Part shown: positions 2,395-43,726 of the stretch, in pieces
How positions within the stretch are numbered: the stretch's first letter is position 1
Layout: the number at the start of each line of letters is the position of its first letter
NCBI GenBank assembly: GCA_002069965.1
Contig: MWCI01000020.1
Coordinates: 1 to 47,075 of the forward strand
Direction of reading: 5' to 3'
DNA length: 47,075 bases
Source: Spirochaetes bacterium ADurb.Bin218
Lineage (GTDB): Bacteria; Spirochaetota; UBA4802; UBA5550
Translations under genes and position numbers: made by a program
Notes under the pieces: generated by a model
Seen by the model: only the letters and a program-made list of their open reading frames with translations
What the model was told of the DNA's origin: nothing
The model's database searches: none

Positions 2395-2988
2395 CTAATA
2401 TTGCCTGAAAAGAGCAGCTAATTTTCCTATAATTGTAAATTCTCCTTCTATGGGGGCATAAGCGGGGTTGCATGGAAGAAGTCTATAGCTATTTGAATTT
2501 TTATCAAGGACCTTAAGTGTAGCTTCATCTTCAATTAAGGCCGCCACAATCTCTCCACTTTCTGCTGCTTCCTGGCTTTTTATAATTGCAGTATCTCCAT
2601 CAAGGATTCCTGCCTCAATCATTGAGTCTCCATGAACAGTGAGTGCAAAAAATTCCCCATTGCCCACCATTTCAAAAGGTAGGTTTATATAGCCTGTAAC
2701 GTTTTCCTCTGCAAGTATTGGGCTTCCTGCTGCAATCCTTCCAAGAAGAGGTATTGAGATTAAGGCATCTGGGATTTCATCTGTAACAACAATTGCCCTT
2801 GATTTGTTTTGGAATGTTTTTATGTAGCCTTTTTTTTCTATGGCCTTTATGTGATCATAGGCACCTTTCACTGTGATGCCAAATCTATCTCCAATTTCTC
2901 TGATTGTTGGTGGAAATCCAGATTCAGCTATCTTTTCCCTTATGTATTGCAAAACCATCTGTTGCTTTTCTGTTAGTTCTTTTGACAT
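2395..2988 (-). CDS. lexA: LexA repressor
   Basis: SOS-response repressor and self-cleaving serine peptidase, 197 aa from the ATG at 2986-2988, which has AAGGAG eight bases upstream. The N-terminal winged helix (residues 1-65; FPPTIREIGDRFGIT, then KGAYDHIKAIEKKGYI) binds operators. The C-terminal S24 domain keeps the Ala87-Gly88 cleavage bond (GRIAAGSP), nucleophile Ser122 (HGDSMIEAG) and general base Lys159 (EATLKVL). All residues needed for RecA-stimulated autocleavage are present and length is normal. An in-frame upstream TTG at 3021 would add 11 residues but lies inside the promoter region. No other obvious SOS gene lies nearby; the downstream secreted protein may be damage-induced by cotranscription. 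Confidence 0.95.
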   Translation of the reverse strand: MSKELTEKQQMVLQYIREKIAESGFPPTIREIGDRFGITVKGAYDHIKAIEKKGYIKTFQNKSRAIVVTDEIPDALISIPLLGRIAAGSPILAEENVTGYINLPFEMVGNGEFFALTVHGDSMIEAGILDGDTAIIKSQEAAESGEIVAALIEDEATLKVLDKNSNSYRLLPCNPAYAPIEGEFTIIGKLAALFRQY

Positions 2989-3011
2989 AAAATACTCCTT
3001 CCCTAAACAAA

Positions 3012-3040
3012 AGGTTAGCATACATTTGTAGTTATGTCAA
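3012..3040 (-). promoter_or_regulatory. lexA promoter with overlapping dyad
   Basis: Read on the minus strand: TTGACA (3035-3040), a 17-base spacer, then TAACCT (3012-3017), about 25 bases upstream of the lexA start codon. Between the two hexamers is the dyad ACAT-N8-ATGT (3022-3037), well placed to be an autoregulatory LexA site. The -35 match is perfect and the -10 is weak. The operator assignment is inference, because LexA boxes differ between phyla. Confidence 0.55.
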
Positions 3041-3830: not shown

Positions 3831-4916
3831 ATGGCAGCTGTAACCATACTTCTTACATCTGATATCCATTTTGCAATTGAGAGAATTAATCCTCTTATTT
3901 CAAGTAGTGAGAGGTTTTCTACTTTTAAAAAGATTATCTCCCTTGCAAAGGAACATGATATTTTCCTCATCGTAGGTGATTTAGTTGAGTTGCCTTTTGC
4001 ATGTGAGGAACTGATAAATGAAATCAATAAGGAGTTGCAAACCCTCATGGATAGTGGAACTGAGGTTTTTTTTCTTCCAGGGAGAAGTGAGCTGTGTTTT
4101 GATTGTAGGGCAAAGTTTTCAGTTGATGATATAAAAACTACTGGAACTTTAAGAACTGATGATGTGATTAAATCCAGTAAAGGAAATATTTTTTTATATG
4201 GAACAGCGCCATGTAATTTAAACAGAACTTCTCTTACAAGGCTTCCAGATAAAGGGTTTCATATTGGAATGTTTTATGGAGATTTTGATCCTAACTCTGA
4301 AAAGAAGTTTTCTCATTGCTCCATAAGTAGAAGTGATATAAAGAATATGAATTTTGATTTTTATGCCCTTGGTGGATGTCATATCCCACGGCTTTTTCGT
4401 ATTCCAGAAAAAATCTTAGGAGCCTGTGCAGGTAGCCCTGAGGCCTGTTCTATTGATGAAACAGGGGAGAGGTTTGTAATATCAATGACTGTAAATTCCT
4501 CAAAAATTGTTTTTATAAAGAGAATTCCAGTGAATACCATCTCCATACAGGAGAGGACTTTCGATTGTTCTTCTATTAAATCAGAGATGGAATTGGCAGA
4601 TCAATTGAAAGAAATATCTAATAGGGATTGTATCAATTATATTAGGTTGAGTGGCACAAGATCCTTTTTAATTACAGATAGCTTTAGAAGTGAAATGACA
4701 GGCTTTTTCAGAGGTCTTAAAATTATTGATAATACAAAAAGAGATTTGCAGGTTTTACTTACAGAGGAGTCAGAGGGTGATTCTCTTAAGGCAAGGTTTT
4801 ATGGAACTTTAAAAGACAGAATTATTGCAGGGGATTCCCTATTATCAGAAATTATAGAAAAGGATAAAATCGCAGAAAGTTTTTCCACAGGGGGGGTTCT
4901 CTTTTGCGATTCTTAA
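3831..4916 (+). CDS. YhaO/SbcD-like metallophosphoesterase with degenerate active site
   Basis: A 361-aa relative of the calcineurin-type phosphoesterases that pair with SbcC/YhaN ATPases. The fold landmarks are visible: strand plus DxH (TSDIHF, D11 and H13), GD (IVGDLVE, D50), and the YhaO/SbcD-like tail GSPEACSIDETGERFVIS after the fourth motif. However, the GNHD/E motif reads GRSE (84-87), the histidine-bearing motif reads MFYGD (147-151), and GHxH reads GGCH (181-184). Several metal ligands are therefore missing and nuclease activity is doubtful. It overlaps the next gene by 13 bases, so the pair is translationally coupled as in yhaO-yhaN and sbcD-sbcC. A structural or regulatory role is inference. 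Confidence 0.75.
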   Translation: MAAVTILLTSDIHFAIERINPLISSSERFSTFKKIISLAKEHDIFLIVGDLVELPFACEELINEINKELQTLMDSGTEVFFLPGRSELCFDCRAKFSVDDIKTTGTLRTDDVIKSSKGNIFLYGTAPCNLNRTSLTRLPDKGFHIGMFYGDFDPNSEKKFSHCSISRSDIKNMNFDFYALGGCHIPRLFRIPEKILGACAGSPEACSIDETGERFVISMTVNSSKIVFIKRIPVNTISIQERTFDCSSIKSEMELADQLKEISNRDCINYIRLSGTRSFLITDSFRSEMTGFFRGLKIIDNTKRDLQVLLTEESEGDSLKARFYGTLKDRIIAGDSLLSEIIEKDKIAESFSTGGVLFCDS

Positions 4917-6874
4917 AAATTACTCTTTTTGAATTTGATGGTCAAAGGCAGAGCTTCCCTCTGGAGGATGGATTAAATATTGTTGTTCCTGAAAAATATG
5001 ATGCTTCTGTTTTTGCACAACTGCCCTTAGTTTCAATTTTTGGCACTTCAAAAGATGGCAAATCCCTTGAAGAGTTATGCAGGAACAAATTTTTTAGATC
5101 TGAGGTTTTATGTAGAATTTTTCATAGGGAGGTCCCTTTTATTTTTGATAATGGCACGCTCTACAGAGAAAAAAATTTTGATATTCCCTTTACTTTTGAT
5201 GACTTTCTGGTGGCTTCTTTTTTTCCATCATGGAACCATTTTATGGAAAAAGATGTCCCTTTGAGGGATAAGCTAAAGAGATATTTGGTTGCATGTGAAT
5301 TTGAAAGAGAAAAGAACTCCTCGTTATATAGAATTGAAAGTGATCTTAAAATGAGAGAGCAAAAAATAAGAAATCTGGAAAAGGAACTTCAAATTCTTGA
5401 ACTAAAAAAAAGAAAAAGCAGCAAAATAGGAAGAGACATTGCTTTTATAGAATCTGAAGTATCTCTGCTAAAGGAAAAGCGCAACTTAGCTTATCTTTAT
5501 AAAGAGTCTCTTGTAAAAGTAAAGAATCTTGAAGAGGAGATAAAAAGTTTAAAAACTGAATCACTTGAAATCAAAAAAGAGATTCTGCAGGCAAAGGAAA
5601 ACCACAGCAAGCTAAAAGAACTTGATGAAGATATAAAAAGCAGATTTCCTCATTTAAAATATAATCCTGATAGTGAGTACTTTGATTATGAAATGCTACA
5701 GGAAAAATTTAAGGCCTATAGAAATGCAAATGAGAAGGTCTCCAATTATGAATCTAATCTAAAAAGCTCTCTCTCTGGAATAGCTAAGGCAATTGGTAGC
5801 TTAATTACTTTTTCAGTTATATCGCTTTTATTCATTTTTGTTAAGGCATTGACCCTATTTAATTTCCCTGGCATATTGTTCTTTTCTTTAAGCATAATTT
5901 CCTTTATTTCTGCAATTTTTATAGGATTTTATTATTATCTTCTCACTAAAAAGGGCGTGCCTGATTCTTTGCTTCAAAGCAAGGCTCTGGCTCAAAAAGA
6001 GCTTCTTGCAACATTAAAGGCGGAGTCCCTTTTTGAAAGAGATGCTGATGTTGGTGATATTTATGAGTTTGTTTTTCGCTATCTTCAGGATATGATTGCC
6101 TTTCTGGAAAAAAATAATGAGTATAATCTTTTGCGAAAAAATTTAATGGAGCAAGCAAATTATGAGGACTTTGAAAATAAGCTAAATCTCATTTCATCAG
6201 AGATAGATAGTAAAGAGAAGGAGATAGCTTCTGTTTTATCATCCTGTGATAGCACAATTCATCCTTTGCCAGAAAGAGAAGATGTTGGCTCACTAATTCC
6301 TGTGATTGATCAAATTATTAGTAACCTTGATGAGGAAATAGATGGTAAGGTGCAGATGATAGATAAGATGAAAGAGGATTTTCATTTGTCTGATACTGAT
6401 ACAGAATCTTTTGAAAAAACAAAGCTCAAGATTGATGATGAGATAGCCTCTATATGGAAAGAGATAACTTCTTTGCGACACATAAAAGAAGTATACGACG
6501 AGGCTGAGACACTGTGGTTTTCTGAAAAATTGGATCTTTTGATACAGAAGAGTTCCCAGATCTTTTGCAATATATATGAAGAAGAAGATAGAGCAGGTTT
6601 TGAGAGAGAGTTAAAAAAGTTATTGGAGTGCTTGCCTGTAGAATTTGAAGGTCGTGATGACTGGATTATTTTTGAGTTGACAGTGAAACTTGCTTTATGT
6701 GAAATTTTAGATAGAGATTATATCCCTCTTGTGCTTGAAGAGCCTTTTGGTTTTTTTTCTGATAATTACATTGAAAATTTAAAAAAAATCTTGCTTCTTC
6801 TTTTCAAGAAAAGGGAAGTTATTTTGATTACTTCGCAAAAAATGGATTTTACAGGTAATATTATTTATTTTTAA
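4904..6874 (+). CDS. YhaN/SbcC-like coiled-coil protein with transmembrane hairpin and lost P-loop
   Basis: A 656-aa protein starting at TTG (4904) seven bases after a G-rich ribosome site (AGGGGGG). The N-terminus follows the YhaN pattern (EDGLNIVV...LVSIFG, 21-47), but where the Walker A GPNxxGKST should be it reads PEKYDASVF. Long coiled coils (about 140-245 and 350-580) flank two membrane segments (about 297-315 and 322-346), an arrangement I associate with YhaN. The C-terminus retains a Walker-B-like VLEEPF and a terminal VILITSQ strand, with Glu in place of the usual Asp. No LSxGT-type signature is visible before it. ATP hydrolysis therefore looks lost, while membrane attachment and partnering with the YhaO-like protein look retained. 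Confidence 0.75.
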   Translation: MRFLKITLFEFDGQRQSFPLEDGLNIVVPEKYDASVFAQLPLVSIFGTSKDGKSLEELCRNKFFRSEVLCRIFHREVPFIFDNGTLYREKNFDIPFTFDDFLVASFFPSWNHFMEKDVPLRDKLKRYLVACEFEREKNSSLYRIESDLKMREQKIRNLEKELQILELKKRKSSKIGRDIAFIESEVSLLKEKRNLAYLYKESLVKVKNLEEEIKSLKTESLEIKKEILQAKENHSKLKELDEDIKSRFPHLKYNPDSEYFDYEMLQEKFKAYRNANEKVSNYESNLKSSLSGIAKAIGSLITFSVISLLFIFVKALTLFNFPGILFFSLSIISFISAIFIGFYYYLLTKKGVPDSLLQSKALAQKELLATLKAESLFERDADVGDIYEFVFRYLQDMIAFLEKNNEYNLLRKNLMEQANYEDFENKLNLISSEIDSKEKEIASVLSSCDSTIHPLPEREDVGSLIPVIDQIISNLDEEIDGKVQMIDKMKEDFHLSDTDTESFEKTKLKIDDEIASIWKEITSLRHIKEVYDEAETLWFSEKLDLLIQKSSQIFCNIYEEEDRAGFERELKKLLECLPVEFEGRDDWIIFELTVKLALCEILDRDYIPLVLEEPFGFFSDNYIENLKKILLLLFKKREVILITSQKMDFTGNIIYF

Positions 6875-6885
6875 TTTTGGTAAAT

Positions 6886-7875
6886 ATGGATAAAGATATT
6901 CAGCTAACTTTTTCTGATGATCCTATGTCTCTGGAGGCTGCTGAGATTTTTCAGTTGTTAACAGAAGGTAATTTTTCTGAGGCTGTTAGAAAAAGCGATG
7001 CTTTAATGTCTGTTGATCCTGATTATCCTGGAGTTGTGGAATATTACAGAACTGCTAAATTCTGGAACAATAGAGAAAAGGCTTTAAGAAAAACCCCAGA
7101 AGGGAAAAAGTGTGCTGATTTTTTAATGGAGGAGTGGTCTGCCTTTGAAGAGTATGCAGAGTATAGAAATATGAAGAACTCCTCAGCATATAAAGCTATA
7201 ATGAATTTTGTATTTTTTAAAGCTGCAGAGAATTACAAGCTGGCATTTCAAAATAATGAGGATACAGATAACAAATTTGATCTTCTTCTTAATTTAGGAG
7301 AGTGTTTTTTGCGCCTCAAGGATTATAAGTCAGCAGCAGATACTCTTGAGTATGCAATGAACTCATATAAGAGTAATGCCCGCCTCCTTTTTATTCTTGG
7401 TGAGGCCTATTATCACCTTGATGATATACCAAAGTCTCTTCTATATTTTCGAGAGGCTTTTTTAATAGATCCCTCAAAGATTGATCTCTCTGTGGTTGAA
7501 GCCAGGCCTATTCATGAGATAGTTGAAATAATAGCCAGCTCGGGCAAAGAATATAGAGATATAAGAGAGTGGATCCCCATATATGGGTATTTAACTGATA
7601 TTTTTTATGTCCGGAGAAATTTAAGCAAGCATCAGGTGGAATCAATTAAAAGAGAGATTATAAACTTAGAAAAGAGTTTTGCCAGACTTGGACCTGATGA
7701 TGTGGAAAATACAAATGTGCTCCCAAGGATGATTAACAAGTATTTATGGCTACTTGATTATTATGAAAATCAGGTGCCAAATATTGAGAATATGGAGCAG
7801 ATAAGGAGCAGGCTTATTGCCATTGACAGGGAACTCTTTTTTGAGTTTTTTAAGAAAAAGCCAAAGAAGATATAG
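6886..7875 (+). CDS. Tetratricopeptide-repeat protein
   Basis: A 329-aa soluble, helical protein. TPR-like units are clear at about 120-200: DLLLNLGECFLRLKDYKSA, then ARLLFILGEAYYHLDDIPKS and LLYFREAFLIDP. An N-terminal unit (EAAEIFQLLTEGNFSEAVRK) probably begins the solenoid. There is no signal peptide or membrane segment. It begins 11 bases after the YhaN-like gene; a TTG at 6877 is an alternative start, but the ATG at 6886 is preferred. Position suggests cotranscription with the YhaO/YhaN-like pair, so it may be a scaffold for that complex, which is inference. The C-terminal 100 residues carry no motif I recognise. Confidence 0.8.
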   Translation: MDKDIQLTFSDDPMSLEAAEIFQLLTEGNFSEAVRKSDALMSVDPDYPGVVEYYRTAKFWNNREKALRKTPEGKKCADFLMEEWSAFEEYAEYRNMKNSSAYKAIMNFVFFKAAENYKLAFQNNEDTDNKFDLLLNLGECFLRLKDYKSAADTLEYAMNSYKSNARLLFILGEAYYHLDDIPKSLLYFREAFLIDPSKIDLSVVEARPIHEIVEIIASSGKEYRDIREWIPIYGYLTDIFYVRRNLSKHQVESIKREIINLEKSFARLGPDDVENTNVLPRMINKYLWLLDYYENQVPNIENMEQIRSRLIAIDRELFFEFFKKKPKKI

Positions 7876-7986: not shown

Positions 7987-9135
7987 ATGAGTGGCTTTAC
8001 AATTCTTTCATATCCTACAGAAAAAAATAGCACTTTGCTTTCTCTGACAACAGAGCGATCAAGGTATATGTTGCCTCTTGGGGGCAGATTTCGCATTGTT
8101 GATTTTACTGTGAGAAATTCTGTTTCTTCAGGAGCAAAGGAGACAATAATATTTACAAACACTCAAGATCATCTTGAAGAGTATGTTAATTTTTATCACG
8201 AGGATTATTCTGAAGCAGGTCATCCTGTGAGGGTTTATCCTTTTTCTCAGGAGGATCCATCTTCTGTACTTGAGGCTATCTCTTCATCAGATGCCTCTTA
8301 TTTTGTTTTATACAATGGGGATAATCCTTCAGTTATTGATCTATCATCTATTTTGAAAAAATTTAAGGGCACAAAAAAGAAAGGGGTTTTGATTAAGCTC
8401 AAAATTGCAGGTAAGGCTACAATGTCTCAGAGGGTTGTTATATCTGATAAAAAGACCCTTGTTTCTGTTGTAAAAAAGGCTCTTACAGAAAAATATAAAT
8501 CCCCAAATTTTTTTGAGATGATTATAAATATGCTCATGCATTCAGGGATAGGGACTTCAACTGTAGATGCCCTTTACTGGAATATAAATAGCGTCACTGA
8601 TTATTATAATCTCAACAGGGATATTATATGGAATGAGGGAATATCATCCCTTATATATAAAGATAGGATAATTAAGAGTCAGATAAAAAAAGAAGGCTTT
8701 GCAATGCTTGATGAATATGGGATAATCAAAAATTCCTTTGTTTCTGATTATTGTTATATAAATGGAAAAGTAGAAAATAGCATAATATTCCCTGGTTCTG
8801 AGATTCATCAAGGAGCAGTGGTGAGAGATTCCATTATTCTTCCCTTTGCAAAAATAGGACCCAATGCTAAAGTTATAAATGCAATAATTGATGAGGGTAA
8901 TGATATTGATGAGAGATTTATTGTTGGAGCAGGTTGCAGAATTGGCTCTGAGGAAAAATTTATAAAAAATAGAGATTTTCCAAATATTTTGAATAACAGT
9001 ATAACCTTGATTGGAAGGGAAAATTTTTTGCCAGAGGGAGTCTTTGTGGGATCTGCCTGTTTCATTGCCCATGGAAAGGCCCAGGAATATTTTTTGACAA
9101 AAAATAGACTGGAAGATGGTGAATCTGTTTTATAA
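7987..9135 (+). CDS. GlgD-like glucose-1-phosphate adenylyltransferase homologue, probably non-catalytic
   Basis: A 382-aa homologue of ADP-glucose pyrophosphorylase (glycogen pathway). The N-terminal nucleotidyltransferase fold is recognisable from GGRFRIVDFTVRNSVSSGA (33-51), matching the GlgC GGKFRIIDF region. The nucleotide-binding loop GGxGxRLxxLT is replaced by PTEKNSTLLSLTTERSR. The C-terminal third is a left-handed beta-helix with hexapeptide turns (SFVSDYCYINGKVENSIIFP, then GSEIHQGAVVRDSIILP). This matches GlgD, the regulatory partner of GlgC in some Firmicutes, rather than a working enzyme. No glgC, glgA or glgB is nearby, so its catalytic partner must be elsewhere. It could instead be a diverged sugar-nucleotidyltransferase-like regulator. 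Confidence 0.75.
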   Translation: MSGFTILSYPTEKNSTLLSLTTERSRYMLPLGGRFRIVDFTVRNSVSSGAKETIIFTNTQDHLEEYVNFYHEDYSEAGHPVRVYPFSQEDPSSVLEAISSSDASYFVLYNGDNPSVIDLSSILKKFKGTKKKGVLIKLKIAGKATMSQRVVISDKKTLVSVVKKALTEKYKSPNFFEMIINMLMHSGIGTSTVDALYWNINSVTDYYNLNRDIIWNEGISSLIYKDRIIKSQIKKEGFAMLDEYGIIKNSFVSDYCYINGKVENSIIFPGSEIHQGAVVRDSIILPFAKIGPNAKVINAIIDEGNDIDERFIVGAGCRIGSEEKFIKNRDFPNILNNSITLIGRENFLPEGVFVGSACFIAHGKAQEYFLTKNRLEDGESVL

Positions 9136-36495: not shown

Positions 36496-37785
36496 TTATA
36501 CTCTTTCAAAAATCATTGCCATACCCATACCACCACCTATGCACATGGATACAACACCAGTTGAGAGATTCTTTCTCTTCATCTGATACATGGCTGTGAC
36601 AACCATTCTTGCACCTGTGCAGCCTATAGGGTGGCCAAGGGAAATTCCGCTACCCAGCTGATTTGGAAATTCATTGTCAAGACCAAGCTCTCTAAAACAG
36701 CCTATTGCCTGTGCAGCAAAGGCCTCATTGATTTCAACCATGTCAAGATCTCTTATTGTCATGCCTGCAAGTTTAAGAGCCTTGCGTATTGCAGGGACAG
36801 GTCCAAGGCCCATATATGCAGGATCCACTCCACCTGCAGCAAAGGATCTTATTCTAATTATAGGCTCAAGGCCAAGTTCTTTAGCCTTATCAGCACTCAT
36901 CATGAGGACAGCAGCAGCTCCGTCATTTATACCTGAGGCATTTCCTGCAGTGACAGTTCCGTCTTTTTTGAAAGCAGGCTTCATCTGAGCCATTTTTTCA
37001 AGACTTGTCTCCATTGGCCTTTCGTCAGTGTCTACAATTATATCTCCTTTTTTTGATGGAAGAACTACAGGAACTATTTCGTCTTTGAAAAGGCCATTTT
37101 TTATTGCAGCCATAGCTCTTTGATGAGATAAAACTCCAAGCTTGTCTTGTTCTTCTCTGCTTATGCCATAAAGAGATGCAATGTTTTCAGCAGTAATACC
37201 CATGTGGTATCCATTAAATATTTCGTATAACCCATCAAAGACCATCAGGTCATGAATATCGCCAGTTCCAGTAAGCTCCATTCTGTGTCCCCAGCGAGCT
37301 TTTTTGAGTGCAAAAGGAGCATTGCTCATGCTTTCCATGCCACCAGCTACAATAACATCTGCCTGACCTGTCATAATTGCCTGAGCACCCATTGTAATCG
37401 CCTTAAGACCAGATCCGCATACTTTGTTGATTGTGCATGCAGGTGCCTCTTTTGGTATTCCAGCGTAAATAGAGGCTTGCCTTGCAGGGTTTTGTCCCTG
37501 GGCAGACTGGAGAACGCATCCCATTATGCTTTCATCCACTGAAATTTCTCTGGCATTGCTATCATATTTGTATCCATTTTTTTCCAGTTCAAGTTGTCCC
37601 TGTGACTTGAGTTTATCCGGTGCTATGCTATGCTGATCCCCGGAAATTACAGGTTTTAGATTTATCTTCTTAAAGACTTCTCTCATTACAAGAGCACCCA
37701 TCTCTATAGCAGATACATCCTTAAGACTCCCCCCAAAGGCGCCAATGGCTGTCCTTGCACCGCTTACTATAACAACATCTTTCAT
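36496..37785 (-). CDS. Acetyl-CoA acetyltransferase (thiolase) with a 35-40-residue N-terminal insertion
   Basis: Interconverts acetoacetyl-CoA and two acetyl-CoA. At 429 aa it exceeds the usual ~392. The excess lies between residues about 43 and 82 (polar, containing SIAPDKLKSQGQLELEKNGY), just before the canonical DESIMGCVLQSAQGQNPARQ. The active site is complete: nucleophile Cys123 (INKVCGSGLKA), EINEAFAAQA, GHPIGCTGARM and the second Cys in MCIGGGMG. GGAGG precedes the ATG. It would finish 4-hydroxybutyrate breakdown with crotonase and a dehydrogenase encoded elsewhere. Confidence 0.93.
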   Translation of the reverse strand: MKDVVIVSGARTAIGAFGGSLKDVSAIEMGALVMREVFKKINLKPVISGDQHSIAPDKLKSQGQLELEKNGYKYDSNAREISVDESIMGCVLQSAQGQNPARQASIYAGIPKEAPACTINKVCGSGLKAITMGAQAIMTGQADVIVAGGMESMSNAPFALKKARWGHRMELTGTGDIHDLMVFDGLYEIFNGYHMGITAENIASLYGISREEQDKLGVLSHQRAMAAIKNGLFKDEIVPVVLPSKKGDIIVDTDERPMETSLEKMAQMKPAFKKDGTVTAGNASGINDGAAAVLMMSADKAKELGLEPIIRIRSFAAGGVDPAYMGLGPVPAIRKALKLAGMTIRDLDMVEINEAFAAQAIGCFRELGLDNEFPNQLGSGISLGHPIGCTGARMVVTAMYQMKRKNLSTGVVSMCIGGGMGMAMIFERV

Positions 37786-37832
37786 GTTGAAACCTCCATA
37801 TTGATTTAATAGTATGTTTTTGCAAAAAAATT

Positions 37833-37872
37833 AAAACTAAAATCAAAAGATTGTGATTGAAATTTTAGTTTT
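37833..37872 (-). promoter_or_regulatory. AT-rich hairpin upstream of the thiolase gene
   Basis: AAAACTAAAAT (37833-37843) and ATTTTAGTTTT (37862-37872) are perfect 11-bp arms, 48 bases before the thiolase ATG. In the leftward direction a 7-T run (37824-37830) follows. It could terminate transcription from the small membrane-protein gene at 38050 or act as a leader attenuator or operator for thiolase. The remaining AT-rich sequence to 38049 shows nothing else I can name. Confidence 0.5.
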
Positions 37873-38049
37873 TATACAAAATATTAAAAAAAACTTCAAG
37901 CATATTTAAAATAAAAGCAGCTAATTATATATCAATTTAGATTTTAAAAATATTTCTAAATTAAAAATTTAATATAAAAATTCATCTTAAAATAGCATTT
38001 AAATTATCCATATCTCAATAGCTAAAAGGTCTAAAATACTGTAGTTATA

Positions 38050-38382
38050 TTAATTATTTTTTTGTAGCAAAAACAAAGCAGATACTGTAAAGAGCAAAAT
38101 GGAACCAGCTTTTAAAGCTGTTGTTAATGAAATAACTATATTCCCTGAATAGATTAATCCATGGAAAATAAAACCTGCCATAAGGAGATTATAAATAATA
38201 ACAAGGACTCTTAGCCAGGTTTTATGATAGGCAGAGGCAAAGGTCATAAATAGAGCCATTGTAAGGTGAAAAATTGAAATCTGACCTGCTTCTATTATAA
38301 AGGCAATAAAGAAAAAGATCCATGCTGTTGCTGTGAGATAAAGGCCATAAGGAGAATAAGGATTAAGGGCTTTAGTTTGCAT
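38050..38382 (-). CDS. Small integral membrane protein of unknown function
   Basis: A 110-aa protein with four likely membrane segments (about 14-31, 36-52, 58-76 and 84-105), a short hydrophilic start (MQTKALNPYSPYG) and a basic-polar end (LLQKNN). I recognise no family. GAGGATAG precedes its ATG, and it lies 5 bases after the NERD-like gene, so the two are cotranscribed. Confidence 0.7.
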   Translation of the reverse strand: MQTKALNPYSPYGLYLTATAWIFFFIAFIIEAGQISIFHLTMALFMTFASAYHKTWLRVLVIIYNLLMAGFIFHGLIYSGNIVISLTTALKAGSILLFTVSALFLLQKNN

Positions 38383-38387
38383 TTTAT

Positions 38388-39104
38388 CTATCCTCTCATA
38401 TATCTCTGTTTCATAAAGATTGCAAAGCCTTCTGCTATTTCACTTTTTACCGGAAATGTAAGCTCTGTTGTAATTCTTTTGTTTAATTCGCTAAGTCCAC
38501 AGATTGATATTTCATTAAAGTCCTTGATGTTAGATTTTTCTTCATGTGCCAGAAGTAGAATTGGCTTTGGCATGCACTCATATCCATCAAAACCTTTGCC
38601 AATTATGATTTTAATGAGGTGGCATAACCTCCATAATCTTGCAGTAACTGATTCAAGGCTGTAGTCTGATATATAGAGAGAATCTTCTATTATCTCAATT
38701 TTTCCCTCAGCGGGAGACTTTGCTATGACAAATATCCCATGTTTTGATATGACAAGATGCTCAACGTGGAATAGCTCAAAGGTAAAATCATTTAGTATAA
38801 AGTAATCATCATTGAGTTGGCTGAGTGTTTCAATTGTTTTGTTTTCATTGCTCAAAAGCCACTGGAATTTGTTTTTATTTACAACTTTTTTCCATGCAAG
38901 AGGGTTTATGCGGAAAGAGACAAAAATCATGAGTGAAAGCGCAACTAATGTAATTATTGCAATCCCATAAAGATCTTTTGTTAAGTTCTGAGAACTTACA
39001 AGTAAAAATCCAAAGAGCGCAAAGGTTGTTATTGCTATAAAGCTAAGGTGCTTTGGGAATGTCTTTGCTATTTTTTCTTCTGGGTTTCCTTCTATATATG
39101 CCAT
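38388..39104 (-). CDS. Membrane protein with NERD-like (nuclease-related) domain
   Basis: A 238-aa protein. Two membrane segments near the N-terminus (about 20-37 and 46-63) anchor a cytoplasmic domain. Residues 96-135 follow the NERD pattern (DDYFILNDFTFELFHVEHLV, then ISKHGIFVIAKSPAEGKIEI). In classic NERD domains the strands carry IDH and an E-x-K motif; here these read VEH and IAKS, so nuclease activity is doubtful. GAGGG precedes the ATG. It forms a unit with the small membrane protein downstream and follows the permease by 100 bases, across a hairpin. Confidence 0.65.
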   Translation of the reverse strand: MAYIEGNPEEKIAKTFPKHLSFIAITTFALFGFLLVSSQNLTKDLYGIAIITLVALSLMIFVSFRINPLAWKKVVNKNKFQWLLSNENKTIETLSQLNDDYFILNDFTFELFHVEHLVISKHGIFVIAKSPAEGKIEIIEDSLYISDYSLESVTARLWRLCHLIKIIIGKGFDGYECMPKPILLLAHEEKSNIKDFNEISICGLSELNKRITTELTFPVKSEIAEGFAIFMKQRYMRG

Positions 39105-39135
39105 CTCTTCCCTCTTTAATTTTTTAGTAAGTTTT

Positions 39136-39167
39136 CAGCTTCTCTGCCGTTTTTGGCAGAGAAGCTG
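39136..39167. terminator. Strong hairpin without T-run after the permease gene
   Basis: CAGCTTCTCTGCC (39136-39148) and GGCAGAGAAGCTG (39155-39167) form a perfect 13-bp stem with a 6-base loop. Neither strand has a T-run directly after it, so it is not a canonical intrinsic terminator. It ends the apparent 4-hydroxybutyrate operon and may work as an RNA-stabilising 3' hairpin or processing site. Confidence 0.65.
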
Positions 39168-39204
39168 TCTGCTTAGGAGGATTTATGTTCTTTTAAAATC
39201 ATGG

Positions 39205-40647
39205 TTACTTTTCTTTTAAATGTTCTTCTACTATTTTAGCAATTACCTCTGGAGAATCAAGAGGAAATACTGGTTCTTCCTGAACATAAGCATTTCTCCA
39301 TTCCTTACCTATATACTGTAAAGCAACAAGGACAAATGCAGCGGCAAGCCACCATGCTGCCCCACGAGTAGCAGTTATTGCACCTGCAACGCCAGCTATA
39401 CCAAGGTCATTGAATCCCTTTGACTTGAGAACTCCAACACGGACGCTTACATATCCCTGGACAAGCATTGTTGATGTAAGGCCAACACCAAGTATTGGTT
39501 TTACTGTGGCAACTATTGGTGCCAGGAAATATCCAGTCCATGTTCCCCATCTGAAAGAGCCAGCGCCACTGTTTATAGATTCCATAGCCTTTGGACCATT
39601 TTTATAACGCTCTGCAACAACAACCTGCATAGCAGCCCACAGAGGTCCGCACATGGAGATATCTGGTCCCAAGATGCTCATGATGAGGTTTCTTCCGCCA
39701 AAGATAATGTGAGATCTGTTTGGATTATAGTTAACCTGTTCATCAGGTCTATATTTTTGAGCATCATCAAGAAGAGCCTGGCTCTGTATAACATCACCAA
39801 AAACAACTATGTATGCACTTACAACCATAGGAATTGATGATATGAACATATGAGCACTTGGGAATGGTATTGCACCAAGCATTGTGAAGTCTCTGAAGAG
39901 AGTTCCAAAATCTGGATTAGAAAAAATTCCATGAATTGAGCTGTAATCTGGCCATGGAATTTCACCGGTCATAGGGCCTACAAATATGGCCAGAGCAAGA
40001 GCTGGCATCATGCCAAGGTTGCCGAGGTAGTATGCCCAGCGATGTTTTTTCTTAAAAACCTTAAAGCTCTGTGAGAAAAGGAGATAGAAAGCAAGACCCA
40101 TACATATAATTATTGTAAGAGGATATGAGTCAAAGCTTTTTAAGCCCTTTCCAGGTGTAAATATCATTATTATTGCTGCAAAGCCTGCTCCAACAAGAAT
40201 TGCTGATTGAACAGCATTTGGTATGAGCATAATAAACCTTCTGGCAAGTCCTGTTATGCCAAGGAACATGCAGAAAATACCAAAAAGCATTTCAAAGGCT
40301 ATTAATGCCTGCATGCGCTCTACACCAGGTGCAAAGGTTTCGCAGTATGCAACAAGCAAAGGAATGGCAGGAGTTACCCATCCCGGAACTACCGGATCAC
40401 CAAAGGTAACATGTGCCAGATATAATGTTCCATTGAGAATTACTATTGCAAGAGCAACCTCAAAGGACATTCCAAGTTTACCTGTAAGCACTGGTATAAT
40501 GGAAAGACACACAGTGCACATGAGGAGACCTTGAAGATAATCGGCCCACTCAAATCTGTAGTGAATAAACGGAAGCCTTAGTGTCAGCGGCCCCATAGGA
40601 ATGCCAGGCTGGATTCCGCCATACTCCCTTTCTCTTCTGATACCCAT
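39205..40647 (-). CDS. NCS2-superfamily-like permease, predicted carboxylate carrier of the 4-hydroxybutyrate operon
   Basis: A 480-aa polytopic protein with about 12-13 membrane segments. Features such as VTFGDPVVPGWVTPAIPLLV, LIPNAVQSAILVGAGFAAII and AYIVVFGDVIQSQALLDDAQ are reminiscent of xanthine/uracil permeases, but it lacks the signature motifs seen in the true uracil permease at 17.6-18.9 kb. AAGGAG precedes the ATG, 50 bases after the CoA-transferase gene on the same strand. Its operon position suggests import of 4-hydroxybutyrate, crotonate or a similar acid rather than a nucleobase; that is inference. The substrate cannot be read from sequence. Confidence 0.75.
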   Translation of the reverse strand: MGIRREREYGGIQPGIPMGPLTLRLPFIHYRFEWADYLQGLLMCTVCLSIIPVLTGKLGMSFEVALAIVILNGTLYLAHVTFGDPVVPGWVTPAIPLLVAYCETFAPGVERMQALIAFEMLFGIFCMFLGITGLARRFIMLIPNAVQSAILVGAGFAAIIMIFTPGKGLKSFDSYPLTIIICMGLAFYLLFSQSFKVFKKKHRWAYYLGNLGMMPALALAIFVGPMTGEIPWPDYSSIHGIFSNPDFGTLFRDFTMLGAIPFPSAHMFISSIPMVVSAYIVVFGDVIQSQALLDDAQKYRPDEQVNYNPNRSHIIFGGRNLIMSILGPDISMCGPLWAAMQVVVAERYKNGPKAMESINSGAGSFRWGTWTGYFLAPIVATVKPILGVGLTSTMLVQGYVSVRVGVLKSKGFNDLGIAGVAGAITATRGAAWWLAAAFVLVALQYIGKEWRNAYVQEEPVFPLDSPEVIAKIVEEHLKEK

Positions 40648-40697
40648 ATAGAACTCCTTAATTTATTTATTTTAATATAATAAATCCCCTGTTAAAA

Positions 40698-41999
40698 TCA
40701 GATCGCTCTTTTGTAGATTTCAAAGAACTGCCTTGAAAGCTCCTCTCTGAAATCAGGGTGAGCGATCTTTATGAGGGATTTTCCTCGCTCTACAACTGAC
40801 TTGCCACGCAAATCAGCAACTCCGTATTCTGTTACTATGAAGTGAGTGTCTGCTCTTGGTGTAGTAACAGATGCTCCTTCATCAATATGAGCAACTATTC
40901 TTGAAAGCTTTCCTCCTGCTGCAGTAGAACTGAAAGCAAGGATGGATCTCCCATTTTTTGACCAGGAGGCACCTCGGACAAAGTCAAGCTGCCCACCTGT
41001 TCCACTGTATTGCTTATAGCCAATAGTGTCAGATACAACCTGCCCTGTAAAATCCACCTGTAATGCTGAGTTTACAGAAACCATGTTATCGTTTTGAGCT
41101 ATAACTGATGGATTGTTAACATAATCAACAGGATACATCTCTATCATGGGATTGTTGTTTGCAAATTTATAAAGTCTTTCACTTCCCATGAGGAACGTTA
41201 CAACCATTTTACCAGGATGAAAGTTTTTCTTTGAGCAGTTGATTACGCCCTTTTCTACCAGTGTCACAACTCCGTCAGAAAACATCTCGCTGTGAATTCC
41301 CAGATTTTTTTTGTCTGTGAGAAAGTTAAGTATTGCATCAGGAACCGCGCCAATTCCAAGTTGTAGGCAATCCCCATCATTTATGAGCTCTGCAATGTAT
41401 TTCCCAATCTTCTCGTCAGTTTCTGTTAGAGTTGGAGGATTAAGAAGAGCTGGGGTTGAATCGCTTTCAACTATGTAATCGATCTCAGAAACATGGATAA
41501 AGGAATCCCCATAGGTTCGTGGCATGTTTGGAGTAACCTCTGCAATGACTATCTTTGCGCATTCAGCAGCAGGTTTTGTATAGTCCACAGAAACACCATA
41601 AGAACAGTATCCATGCTCATCAGGAGTTGAAACCATTATTAGAGCAACATCCACAGGCAAAACCTTATCTTTGAAAAGAGATGGTATTCTGCTGAAGTGA
41701 CAGGGGGTAAATATAGCACGCCCCTCGGCAATAGCCTTTCTGGTTGAGGCTCCAGCAAAGAGAGCATTATGTGTAAAGTTTTCTACATATTCTGGATTGC
41801 AGTATTCTCCCTTACCAAGAGCTACCATGTGAACAATTTCTACATTTTTATACAAAGAGGCATTGCGGACAAGAGCCTCTACCAGCACTTTTGGTTCGCC
41901 AGCTGCGTGTCCAAAAACAACTCTGTCACCGGATTTTATATGCCTCACAGCTTCATCTGCAGTAACGACCTTTTTTTTATAATCATCCATCCACTGCAT
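40698..41999 (-). CDS. abfT: 4-hydroxybutyrate CoA-transferase (acetyl-CoA transferase family)
   Basis: Transfers CoA from acetyl-CoA (or butyryl-CoA) to 4-hydroxybutyrate. Of normal length at 433 aa, with family landmarks VVFGHAAGEP, LQLGIGAVPDAIL and the catalytic glutamate Glu238 (GIHSEMFSDGVV), followed by GTGGQLDFVRGA and VTEYGVADLRGKSV. Butyryl-CoA:acetate CoA-transferases look very similar; the adjacent 4-hydroxybutyryl-CoA dehydratase tips the assignment. A strong GGGAGG precedes the ATG. It follows the small Cys-rich gene by 16 bases in the same operon. Confidence 0.88.
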   Translation of the reverse strand: MQWMDDYKKKVVTADEAVRHIKSGDRVVFGHAAGEPKVLVEALVRNASLYKNVEIVHMVALGKGEYCNPEYVENFTHNALFAGASTRKAIAEGRAIFTPCHFSRIPSLFKDKVLPVDVALIMVSTPDEHGYCSYGVSVDYTKPAAECAKIVIAEVTPNMPRTYGDSFIHVSEIDYIVESDSTPALLNPPTLTETDEKIGKYIAELINDGDCLQLGIGAVPDAILNFLTDKKNLGIHSEMFSDGVVTLVEKGVINCSKKNFHPGKMVVTFLMGSERLYKFANNNPMIEMYPVDYVNNPSVIAQNDNMVSVNSALQVDFTGQVVSDTIGYKQYSGTGGQLDFVRGASWSKNGRSILAFSSTAAGGKLSRIVAHIDEGASVTTPRADTHFIVTEYGVADLRGKSVVERGKSLIKIAHPDFREELSRQFFEIYKRAI

Positions 42000-42015
42000 A
42001 TAAAACCTCCCTGAA

Positions 42016-42300
42016 TTAATTTTTTCTTAGCATCAAGATCTCATCAATCACTGAATCTGCATCTTCTTTGTTGCAGATAAACCTTATCTTACTATGTTCA
42101 ACTCCGGTTAAATCCGCACATGCACTTTTGCATCCCATAAAAGCCAGAATGAGATCCACTCCGCTCTCTCTGTAATCAGTAAAAACAACCTCATCTTTGA
42201 GAGCTTTTTTTATTTCCAGAGAGGCTGAGATCCTATCAAAAGTAGGATTACAGCCTCCGCAAAATTTAATACCTACCTTAAGCTTATTCCTCAATTCCAC
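42016..42300 (-). CDS. Small Cys-rich protein (CGGC motif) between abfD and abfT
   Basis: A 94-aa protein starting at GTG (42298-42300), 17 bases inside the 3' end of the dehydratase gene, so it is translationally coupled. Cysteines cluster as FCGGCNP (about 14-18) and MGCKSAC (about 56-61), a pattern suited to binding a metal or Fe-S cluster, or to thiol redox. The rest is a small alpha/beta fold (DLILAFMGC, SKIRFICNKED). I know of no assigned function. Its tight coupling to an oxygen-sensitive [4Fe-4S]/FAD enzyme suggests a maturation or protection role, which is inference. Confidence 0.75.
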   Translation of the reverse strand: MELRNKLKVGIKFCGGCNPTFDRISASLEIKKALKDEVVFTDYRESGVDLILAFMGCKSACADLTGVEHSKIRFICNKEDADSVIDEILMLRKN

Positions 42301-43726
42301 AGAGCTTCTTGGCTATCTTTTTCTTTTCTTCCATATTGACTTGACGTGCTATCATGATTCTCTGTGCCTGAGGTGATCCTGCACCATGCATTGACTCAGT
42401 TAAATATCCCACTGCTGCTGTTCCAAGGGTAATATTTTCTATGAGTCGTAAAATTCTTAGTCTGTTTTCCGTGGAGACATTGGCAACTGCCTTAAAGTAT
42501 TTTTTAACCCAGTGACCAACCTCAGGAGAATTTAAATCCTCCTCAGAGGGCATTGTAACCATAAGTCCACCTGCGATATCTTGAGCAAGCCTTGCTATCT
42601 CATAAGGGAATCTTGTAACGTTTTGCTTGCATACATTTGCAAGGAGTGTATTTACAAGGAAAGTCCCAGATGGCTGTTTTGTCCCTTCAAGGGCACATGC
42701 AAGAGAACCGCAGAATAGAGTCTCGTTGAGGTGATTCATTTCGATTATCTTTTCTTTTACATGAGAAGCCTTTGCTGCTCCATTGTACTCTGCTGCAACC
42801 TGAGCTGCCCCTATGAGGACATCGCCAACTCCCACCTTACAAGCATAGCTCTGCCTGTGATATGAGGCAAAGTTCTCCACAAGCTCTCCAGCAAATTCAT
42901 ACTCTTTATACATAAAAACTCTTTCCCATGGAACAAATACATCATCAAAAACAACTAATGCCTCATGTCCGCCGTAGTATTGGTTACCCCTGTCCAGTGT
43001 GCCTTTTTCTAGTTTCCTTGTGTCACATGACTGTCTTCCATAAATGTATGTTATCCCCTTTGTATCAGATGGAACAGCAAAGGATATTGCATATTCCTTA
43101 TCCTCTTCTCTCATTGATATTGTTGGCATAACAATAATCTCGTGAGAGTTAACAGCACCAGTTTGATGAGCCTTGGCTCCTCGAACTATAATTCCATCTT
43201 CTTTTTCGCTAACTACATGTAAAAATGCGTCCTTGTCTGGCTGCTGGCTTGGAGAAAGGCTTCTATCTCCCTTTGGATCTGTCATGGCTCCATCGCATAC
43301 CAGATCTTCCTGTTGAACATATTCAAGATATTTCAGGAATCTCTTGTTGTATTCTGTCCCATATTTTTTGTCTATGTTGAATGTTGTAATGGACAGAGCG
43401 TTTAAAGCATCCATACCAACACAGCGCTGGAAACAGCATCCTGTTTGAGCTCCAAGGAGCCTTTCCATTTTTGTCTTTTTTACAAGATCTTCTTTGCTTT
43501 GATGAATATGAGTAAATCGGTTGATCTTTTTTCCTGTTATGTGAGATGTTGCAGTTAGAAGATCTTCATATTCAGGCATTGCTGCTAAATCATAGGTTAG
43601 TTTAACAGCATTCATAGATGGTCTTATAATTGGATCATCAACAACGTTTTCCACTCTCTTGCCAAAGAGATACACTACAAGATTTAGTTTCCTTAAACTC
43701 TCTTCATACTCCTTACCTGTTTTCAT
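42284..43726 (-). CDS. abfD: 4-hydroxybutyryl-CoA dehydratase / vinylacetyl-CoA isomerase
   Basis: A 480-aa FAD and [4Fe-4S] enzyme dehydrating 4-hydroxybutyryl-CoA to crotonyl-CoA by a ketyl-radical route. Cluster ligands are recognisable: Cys98 and Cys102 (TGCCFQRCVGMDAL), His290 and Cys296 (YHRQSYACKVGVGD). FAD-binding regions are typical of the acyl-CoA dehydrogenase-like HpaB family (RGAKAHQTGAVNSHE, ESMHGAGSPQAQRIMIARQ). AGGAGG lies 8 bases before the ATG, and a sigma-54 promoter lies 44-59 bases upstream. It is the first gene of the operon abfD, Cys-rich protein, abfT, permease. Confidence 0.95.
   Translation of the reverse strand: MKTGKEYEESLRKLNLVVYLFGKRVENVVDDPIIRPSMNAVKLTYDLAAMPEYEDLLTATSHITGKKINRFTHIHQSKEDLVKKTKMERLLGAQTGCCFQRCVGMDALNALSITTFNIDKKYGTEYNKRFLKYLEYVQQEDLVCDGAMTDPKGDRSLSPSQQPDKDAFLHVVSEKEDGIIVRGAKAHQTGAVNSHEIIVMPTISMREEDKEYAISFAVPSDTKGITYIYGRQSCDTRKLEKGTLDRGNQYYGGHEALVVFDDVFVPWERVFMYKEYEFAGELVENFASYHRQSYACKVGVGDVLIGAAQVAAEYNGAAKASHVKEKIIEMNHLNETLFCGSLACALEGTKQPSGTFLVNTLLANVCKQNVTRFPYEIARLAQDIAGGLMVTMPSEEDLNSPEVGHWVKKYFKAVANVSTENRLRILRLIENITLGTAAVGYLTESMHGAGSPQAQRIMIARQVNMEEKKKIAKKLCGIEE

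Follow-up and report, generated by a model that had tools for sequence, protein, structure and literature searches.

Known Mre11-Rad50-type and YhaO/YhaN-type pairs

Complexes of the SMC/Rad50 type are thought to require both the binding and the hydrolysis of ATP. The calcineurin-like fold has been kept as a structural subunit after the loss of catalysis in the B-subunits of eukaryotic DNA polymerases and in Vps29. The closest named relatives of the gene pair described herein (genes A and B) are YhaO and YhaN, for which a literature search retrieved no functional study. YhaO/YhaN-type pairs, which are composed of a phosphoesterase and an AAA_27 Rad50-like protein, share with A and B the gene order, the overlap or abutment of the two frames and the folds. 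In P. furiosus Mre11, His173, His206 and His208 have been listed as nuclease residues, and the Mre11-Rad50 fusion R555 of Mimivirus provides a natural Mre11-like domain in which the His206 position is replaced (PMC3175470).

Source of the locus and sampling

The window, namely the whole stretch of 47,075 nucleotides that was analysed, corresponds to contig 20 of a genome of 3.0 Mb (G000, 96.6% complete), which is related to Spirochaetota MAGs including UBA5550, UBA5763, UBA2205 and HGW-Spirochaetae-5. It belongs to an uncultured Spirochaetota class, which we take to be the GTDB class UBA4802 and of which we know no cultured member. The class was sampled with 46 genomes, and the motif table covers 42 of them together with three intact outgroup pairs from other Spirochaetota outside the class (G056, G068 and G078, the A frame of G068 being without its start). 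The window's B protein alone, used as a query against the genome contigs, gave no match because it is too diverged, and the class relatives were recovered instead by a profile search with the TPR protein of gene C. Seven genomes from the genera g1, g2, g6 and g10 (G000-G003, G007, G011 and G015) constitute what is termed below the Walker-less clade. Promoter and terminator scans gave results at chance level.

Gene A, a probable pseudo-phosphoesterase of the Mre11/SbcD fold

3831..4916, + strand: gene A, Mre11/SbcD-fold pseudo-phosphoesterase, 361 aa, ATG start
3861..3869, + strand: DxH (D11, H13) kept, forming half of the metal site that remains; present in 42/42 (D) and 38/42 (H) class genomes and in 7/7 Walker-less genomes
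3978..3980, + strand: D50 of the GD motif kept, as in 38/42 class genomes and 7/7 Walker-less genomes
4080..4091, + strand: GRSE in place of GNHD (residues 84-87); N absent in 42/42 and catalytic His in 40/42 of the class
4275..4277, + strand: Y149 where the H173-equivalent His would stand; that His remains in 2/7 Walker-less and 32/42 class genomes
4371..4382, + strand: GGCH in place of GHxH (residues 181-184), first His lost (G182), H184 kept; in the clade, first His 0/7, second 7/7

The single-sequence scan gave a weak Metallophos match for window A. A profile built from its relatives matched SbcD/Mre11 chains (E 1e-11), and the AF2 model (pLDDT 87) matched Mre11 structures of the PDB in Foldseek (E 3e-13). 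By the model, its structure matches and the profile, A has the Mre11 fold with a capping domain and C-terminal helices of the Rad50-binding type, which would be the part that binds B.

The Mre11/SbcD active-site set is incomplete in window A, with the loss of GNHD and of the H173- and H206-equivalents. Both the Asn and the His of GNHD are present in all three outgroup A proteins, and both are gone from the seven Walker-less genomes. In Mre11-type enzymes, DxH, the bridging Asp and the last His (D11, H13, D50 and H184 in A) are the ligands of one of the two metals; this D/H/D/H site is complete in 38/42 class genomes and in 7/7 of the clade, and A keeps one complete metal site, the second being dismantled.

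Gene B, a Rad50/YhaN-type coiled-coil protein

4904..6874, + strand: gene B, coiled-coil protein of the Rad50/YhaN type lacking ATPase motifs, 656 aa, starting at TTG
4988..5014, + strand: PEKYDASVF at the Walker A position, where relatives in other families and 11 same-family genomes have G(K/R)N(G/N)SGK(S/T) or a close form
5801..5929, + strand: membrane hairpin at the apex of the coiled coils, made of two hydrophobic segments; a double peak in all full-length class B proteins and in all three outgroup proteins
6641..6688, + strand: ABC signature position, EFEGRDDW...; LSCGAEEQ in the outgroups, altered in the whole class, e.g. LNPxxxH
6725..6748, + strand: degenerate Walker B, PLVLEEPF; PL(I/L)(I/L)D(D/E)PF..MD in relatives
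6833..6838, + strand: switch His lost, TSQ in place of TH (S644), from the motif table

In the single-sequence scan, window B gave no ATPase match, neither AAA_23 nor AAA_27. The AAA_27 profile is matched by the intact relatives, not by window B, for which common descent is indicated by alignment to these relatives; AAA_27/AAA_23 matches were obtained for 16/31 members. A profile built from the relatives matched Rad50 chains (E 2e-15), and the AF2 model (pLDDT 81) matched the Rad50 chain of the Mre11-Rad50-Nbs1 (MRN) complex (E 4e-12), the next matches being LmuB and other SMC-like proteins. The whole-length TM-scores, at about 0.3, are low, which is to be expected where the arm geometry of a coiled-coil protein is uncertain; the match rests on the E-value and the profile evidence. 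By the profile, the AF2 model and the structure matches, B has an ABC-type head in two parts that long coiled coils connect.

The CxxC zinc hook is absent from window B, and in its place stands the hairpin, with hydrophobic peaks at residues 300 and 324 (KD 2.3 and 2.5), which is kept in all seven Walker-less B proteins. After the hairpin, residues ~383-400 (window 6050-6103) form a class-specific conserved stretch with the consensus YExLLQYFEDYxEY, in which Y387 and Y393 are invariant and to which nothing in the outgroup proteins obviously corresponds.

The preliminary description of this DNA had the coordinates and the frames right (3831-6874, here resolved into 3831-4916 and 4904-6874 with an overlap of 13 nt) and had read most of the motifs as they stand here, with GRSE in A (residues 84-87) and, in B, PEKYDASVF for the Walker A loop, no visible LSxGT signature (the position reads EFEGRDDW) and Glu for the Walker B Asp (in LVLEEPF). 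Its statement that A is devoid of the GHxH histidines holds for the first His alone, H184 being kept. The structure models, which it had suggested as a check, leave both proteins within the Mre11/Rad50 folds. The Walker motifs are likewise missing from six further genomes, so that the loss of the Walker motifs in the window is not a matter of chance. By fold and alignment the window pair is a family descendant that fails the catalytic features of the family, and neither a nuclease nor an ATPase annotation is thus appropriate for it.

The complete D/H/D/H site, the nearly invariant Glu of PGxxE in A and the intact Walker motifs of B outside the clade would fit an altered enzyme that is still active, in which A acts on another substrate with one metal (or with the PGxxE Glu as a ligand) and B binds ATP without the signature, at least outside the clade. 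Such an enzyme is improbable given that the GNHD Asn is gone throughout the class and the catalytic His nearly so, and that a Gly-Lys-Ser/Thr loop occurs in 0/7 of the clade B proteins.

Intact SbcCD elsewhere in the genomes

Co-occurrence with an intact SbcCD, which had been put forward as a second check, was found. G000 encodes at C13 a canonical SbcD-SbcC pair with GNHD, GHLH, the zinc-hook CPVC, GPTGSGKT and LSGGE; G001, G002 and G003 likewise have an SbcD that scores above the family cut-off, and G007 harbors another intact SbcCD-like pair. No second, intact B copy able to supply the ATPase was found in G000. The SbcC_Walker_B match L002 and the B-profile match at G000:C3 were rejected, both being ordinary ABC transporters.

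The conserved operon and the TPR protein

4904..4916, + strand: A/B translational overlap, 13 nt; likewise 13 nt in 7/7 Walker-less genomes, overlap in 40/41 class loci
6877..7875, + strand: gene C, TPR protein, 332 aa, 2 nt 3' of B; TPR_2 E 2.4e-8; 42/46 class genomes
7987..9135, + strand: gene D, GlgD-like protein, neighbour; TIGR02092 E 5.6e-31

The A-B-C operon is found in about 42/46 class genomes (B in 43/46 at E < 1e-3, with a weak match in G009; A and C in 42/46 each), and the spacing of B and C lies between -25 and +14 nt in 40/41 class loci. All or most of the operon is missing from G009, G014, G036 and G043, of which two are incomplete and two are 94% complete, so that gene loss or an assembly gap may account for them. 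Beyond the class, B-like proteins were detected in G056, G068 and G078 among ~250 phylum genomes, three candidates being scored per genome.

The distribution also bears on whether A and B derive from a module for defence against phages, be it Lamassu (LmuB) or another SMC-like system, as the resemblance of B to LmuB in structure and profile might suggest. The pair is single-copy and occupies one conserved operon position in nearly every class genome, no Lamassu effector adjoins it, and PADLOC returned no match for A and a weak match of the coiled-coil type for B, which makes a defence origin highly improbable.

Gene C is the most conserved member of the operon (45-73% identity) and occurs in 232/296 Spirochaetota genomes, being conserved also without A and B. 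Among the 16 non-class C neighbourhoods read, none has A-B beside C, and nearly all have directly downstream a protein of ~900 aa, which is long-form GreA in both full-length examples tested. The arrangement of a C-type TPR gene directly upstream of long-form greA extends across most of the phylum (L147-L161, L166), genomes of 0.9-1.9 Mb included, and the class retains long-form greA elsewhere in the genome. The phylum-wide occurrence of C beside greA outside the class implies that C is old and that it joined, or was joined by, A-B in the class. The suggestion that the TPR gene may encode a third component is plausible: C is a near-constant operon partner within the class, but it is phylum-wide and stands beside long-form greA elsewhere. 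From its conserved adjacency, C is plausibly the best candidate partner of A-B.

Gene D follows C in 6/7 Walker-less genomes and in G006, and is probably not part of the A-B complex; its GGxGTRL nucleotidyltransferase loop is seemingly replaced by ILSYPTEKNSTLL, as in regulatory GlgD subunits. A lexA gene lies at 2395-3021, two genes upstream of A; a LexA link to A-B was rejected, since lexA occupies that place in the window and in no other class genome read. Further away, at 36496-43726, genes resembling thiolase, CoA-transferase and 4-hydroxybutyryl-CoA dehydratase (named by eye from their first residues) suggest a butyrate-type fermentation cluster.

Order of the motif losses

The outgroup pairs possess GNHD, GHFH, Walker A, the LSCG signature, DDPF, the switch His and the hairpin. 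The ABC signature is altered in every class B, while both Walker motifs remain intact in families f2-f7 and in 11 members of f1, the family of the window, within which the first His of GHxH is kept solely in G008. The seven genomes without Walker motifs form one clade of four genera with 100/100 support in the C+A tree, which, with GTDB-style family codes, keeps the clade inside f1; the A+B tree, in which the branches of the clade are long, puts it outside its family.

As read from the motif table and the trees, GNHD and the signature were lost in or before the class ancestor, and Walker A/B and the switch His were lost once, later, in one clade. The losses were therefore sequential, the nuclease motif going first and the ATPase motifs much later, and not parallel as had been proposed. 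In family f3 (L162-L165), A has separately lost DxH and the Asp of GD and B keeps Walker A and B, which amounts to another route of dismantling.

Selection and constraint

The single usable Walker-less pair, G001/G002 (dS about 0.2), gave dN/dS values of 0.11 (0.07-0.16) for A, 0.17 (0.12-0.24) for B and 0.01 for C, and B in Walker-intact pairs at similar dS gave 0.18-0.21. The former head domains of B yielded 0.29 and 0.14. At a C identity of 0.65-0.70, B identity is 0.25 in the Walker-less clade versus 0.35 in the intact genomes, and the identity of the B heads at equal C divergence is 0.25-0.26 versus 0.40-0.49. This faster evolution, located mostly in the ex-ATPase heads, fits a partly relaxed constraint; the fair reading is that the constraint on B in the clade has changed and been partly relaxed, not abolished. 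The frames of A and B are open in 7/7 Walker-less genomes at identities down to 0.33 (A) and 0.16 (B), and the B of G003 is short and sits on a very long branch.

Slow decay, in which A and B are unneeded and persist merely through their position in one operon, upstream of the conserved C and overlapping it, would explain the rapid fall of B identity in the clade, which is steepest in the heads, the state of G003 B and the far stronger constraint on C. It would hardly be expected to leave seven full-length frames open across four genera at such divergence, to hold the upper bounds of dN/dS at 0.24 for B and 0.16 for A, or to preserve the hairpin and the retained metal ligands in 7/7 genomes, and it is considered unlikely.

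The preference of the preliminary description for repurposing over decay is therefore shared here, given the Walker loss in seven genomes of four genera, dN/dS of 0.11-0.17 in the one pair available to its proposed test of purifying selection, the open frames, and the retained hairpin (7/7) and 13-nt overlap. The losses are not recent decay, being common to the class or to the four-genus clade; fully intact orthologous pairs occur in a few other Spirochaetota.

A putative membrane-anchored scaffold

It is probable that A and B constitute a membrane-anchored pseudo-enzyme complex of the Mre11-Rad50 type, which has been retained for its architecture and works as an ATP-independent scaffold. In such a complex, A would dimerise and its C-terminal helices would bind the base of the coiled coils of B, which would run from the head to a two-helix membrane hairpin at the place where SbcC/Rad50 would carry the zinc hook. 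The nuclease residues of GNHD and the ABC signature were lost by the time of the class ancestor, in which ATP binding would have been kept; in the clade of the window, the Walker motifs have also gone, so that ATP could no longer drive a cycle of the head and the complex would serve as a static scaffold, or as a tether linking the membrane to a cytoplasmic partner, most likely the co-transcribed TPR protein C. A may hold one metal ion, which would stabilise the protein or bind a ligand. The analysis establishes the homology and the folds, the lost motifs and the order in which they went, the conserved operon, purifying selection and the intact SbcCD elsewhere in the genome; the assembly of A, B and C, the membrane insertion, the absence of ATPase and nuclease activity and the scaffold function are what we infer.

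There is about an even chance that a DNA-processing Mre11-Rad50-type enzyme has become, by steps that can be traced within one class, a catalysis-free membrane-anchored scaffold with a TPR partner, namely an SMC/Rad50-like machine that needs no ATP cycle. Intact, half-dismantled and fully dismantled forms of one operon occur in one phylum with the order of loss readable on a tree, by which the role of such a complex without its enzymes becomes a testable question and the widespread, uncharacterised YhaO/YhaN pairs gain a comparative handle.

Comparison with known systems

The YhaO/YhaN-type outgroup pairs retain every catalytic motif together with the hairpin, whereas A-B has lost GNHD and the signature class-wide and then the Walker motifs, and is accompanied by gene C as an addition. 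A 1149-aa protein of Sphingobium that bears the name YhaN is, unlike B, without the hydrophobic hairpin. SbcCD and Mre11-Rad50 have the folds and the two-gene architecture in common with A-B, which differs from them in the membrane hairpin instead of the zinc hook and in the missing nuclease and ATPase motifs. LmuB of Lamassu is similar to B in structure and profile, and the Lamassu features of a linked effector nuclease, LmuC and a patchy island distribution are absent from the A-B locus. The partner of the DNA polymerase B-subunits and of Vps29 is not a motif-less Rad50-like ATPase, unlike B, the partner of A. Finally, R555 resembles A in the replaced His206 position but, unlike A-B, keeps GNHD/E and the Walker motifs (PMC3175470).
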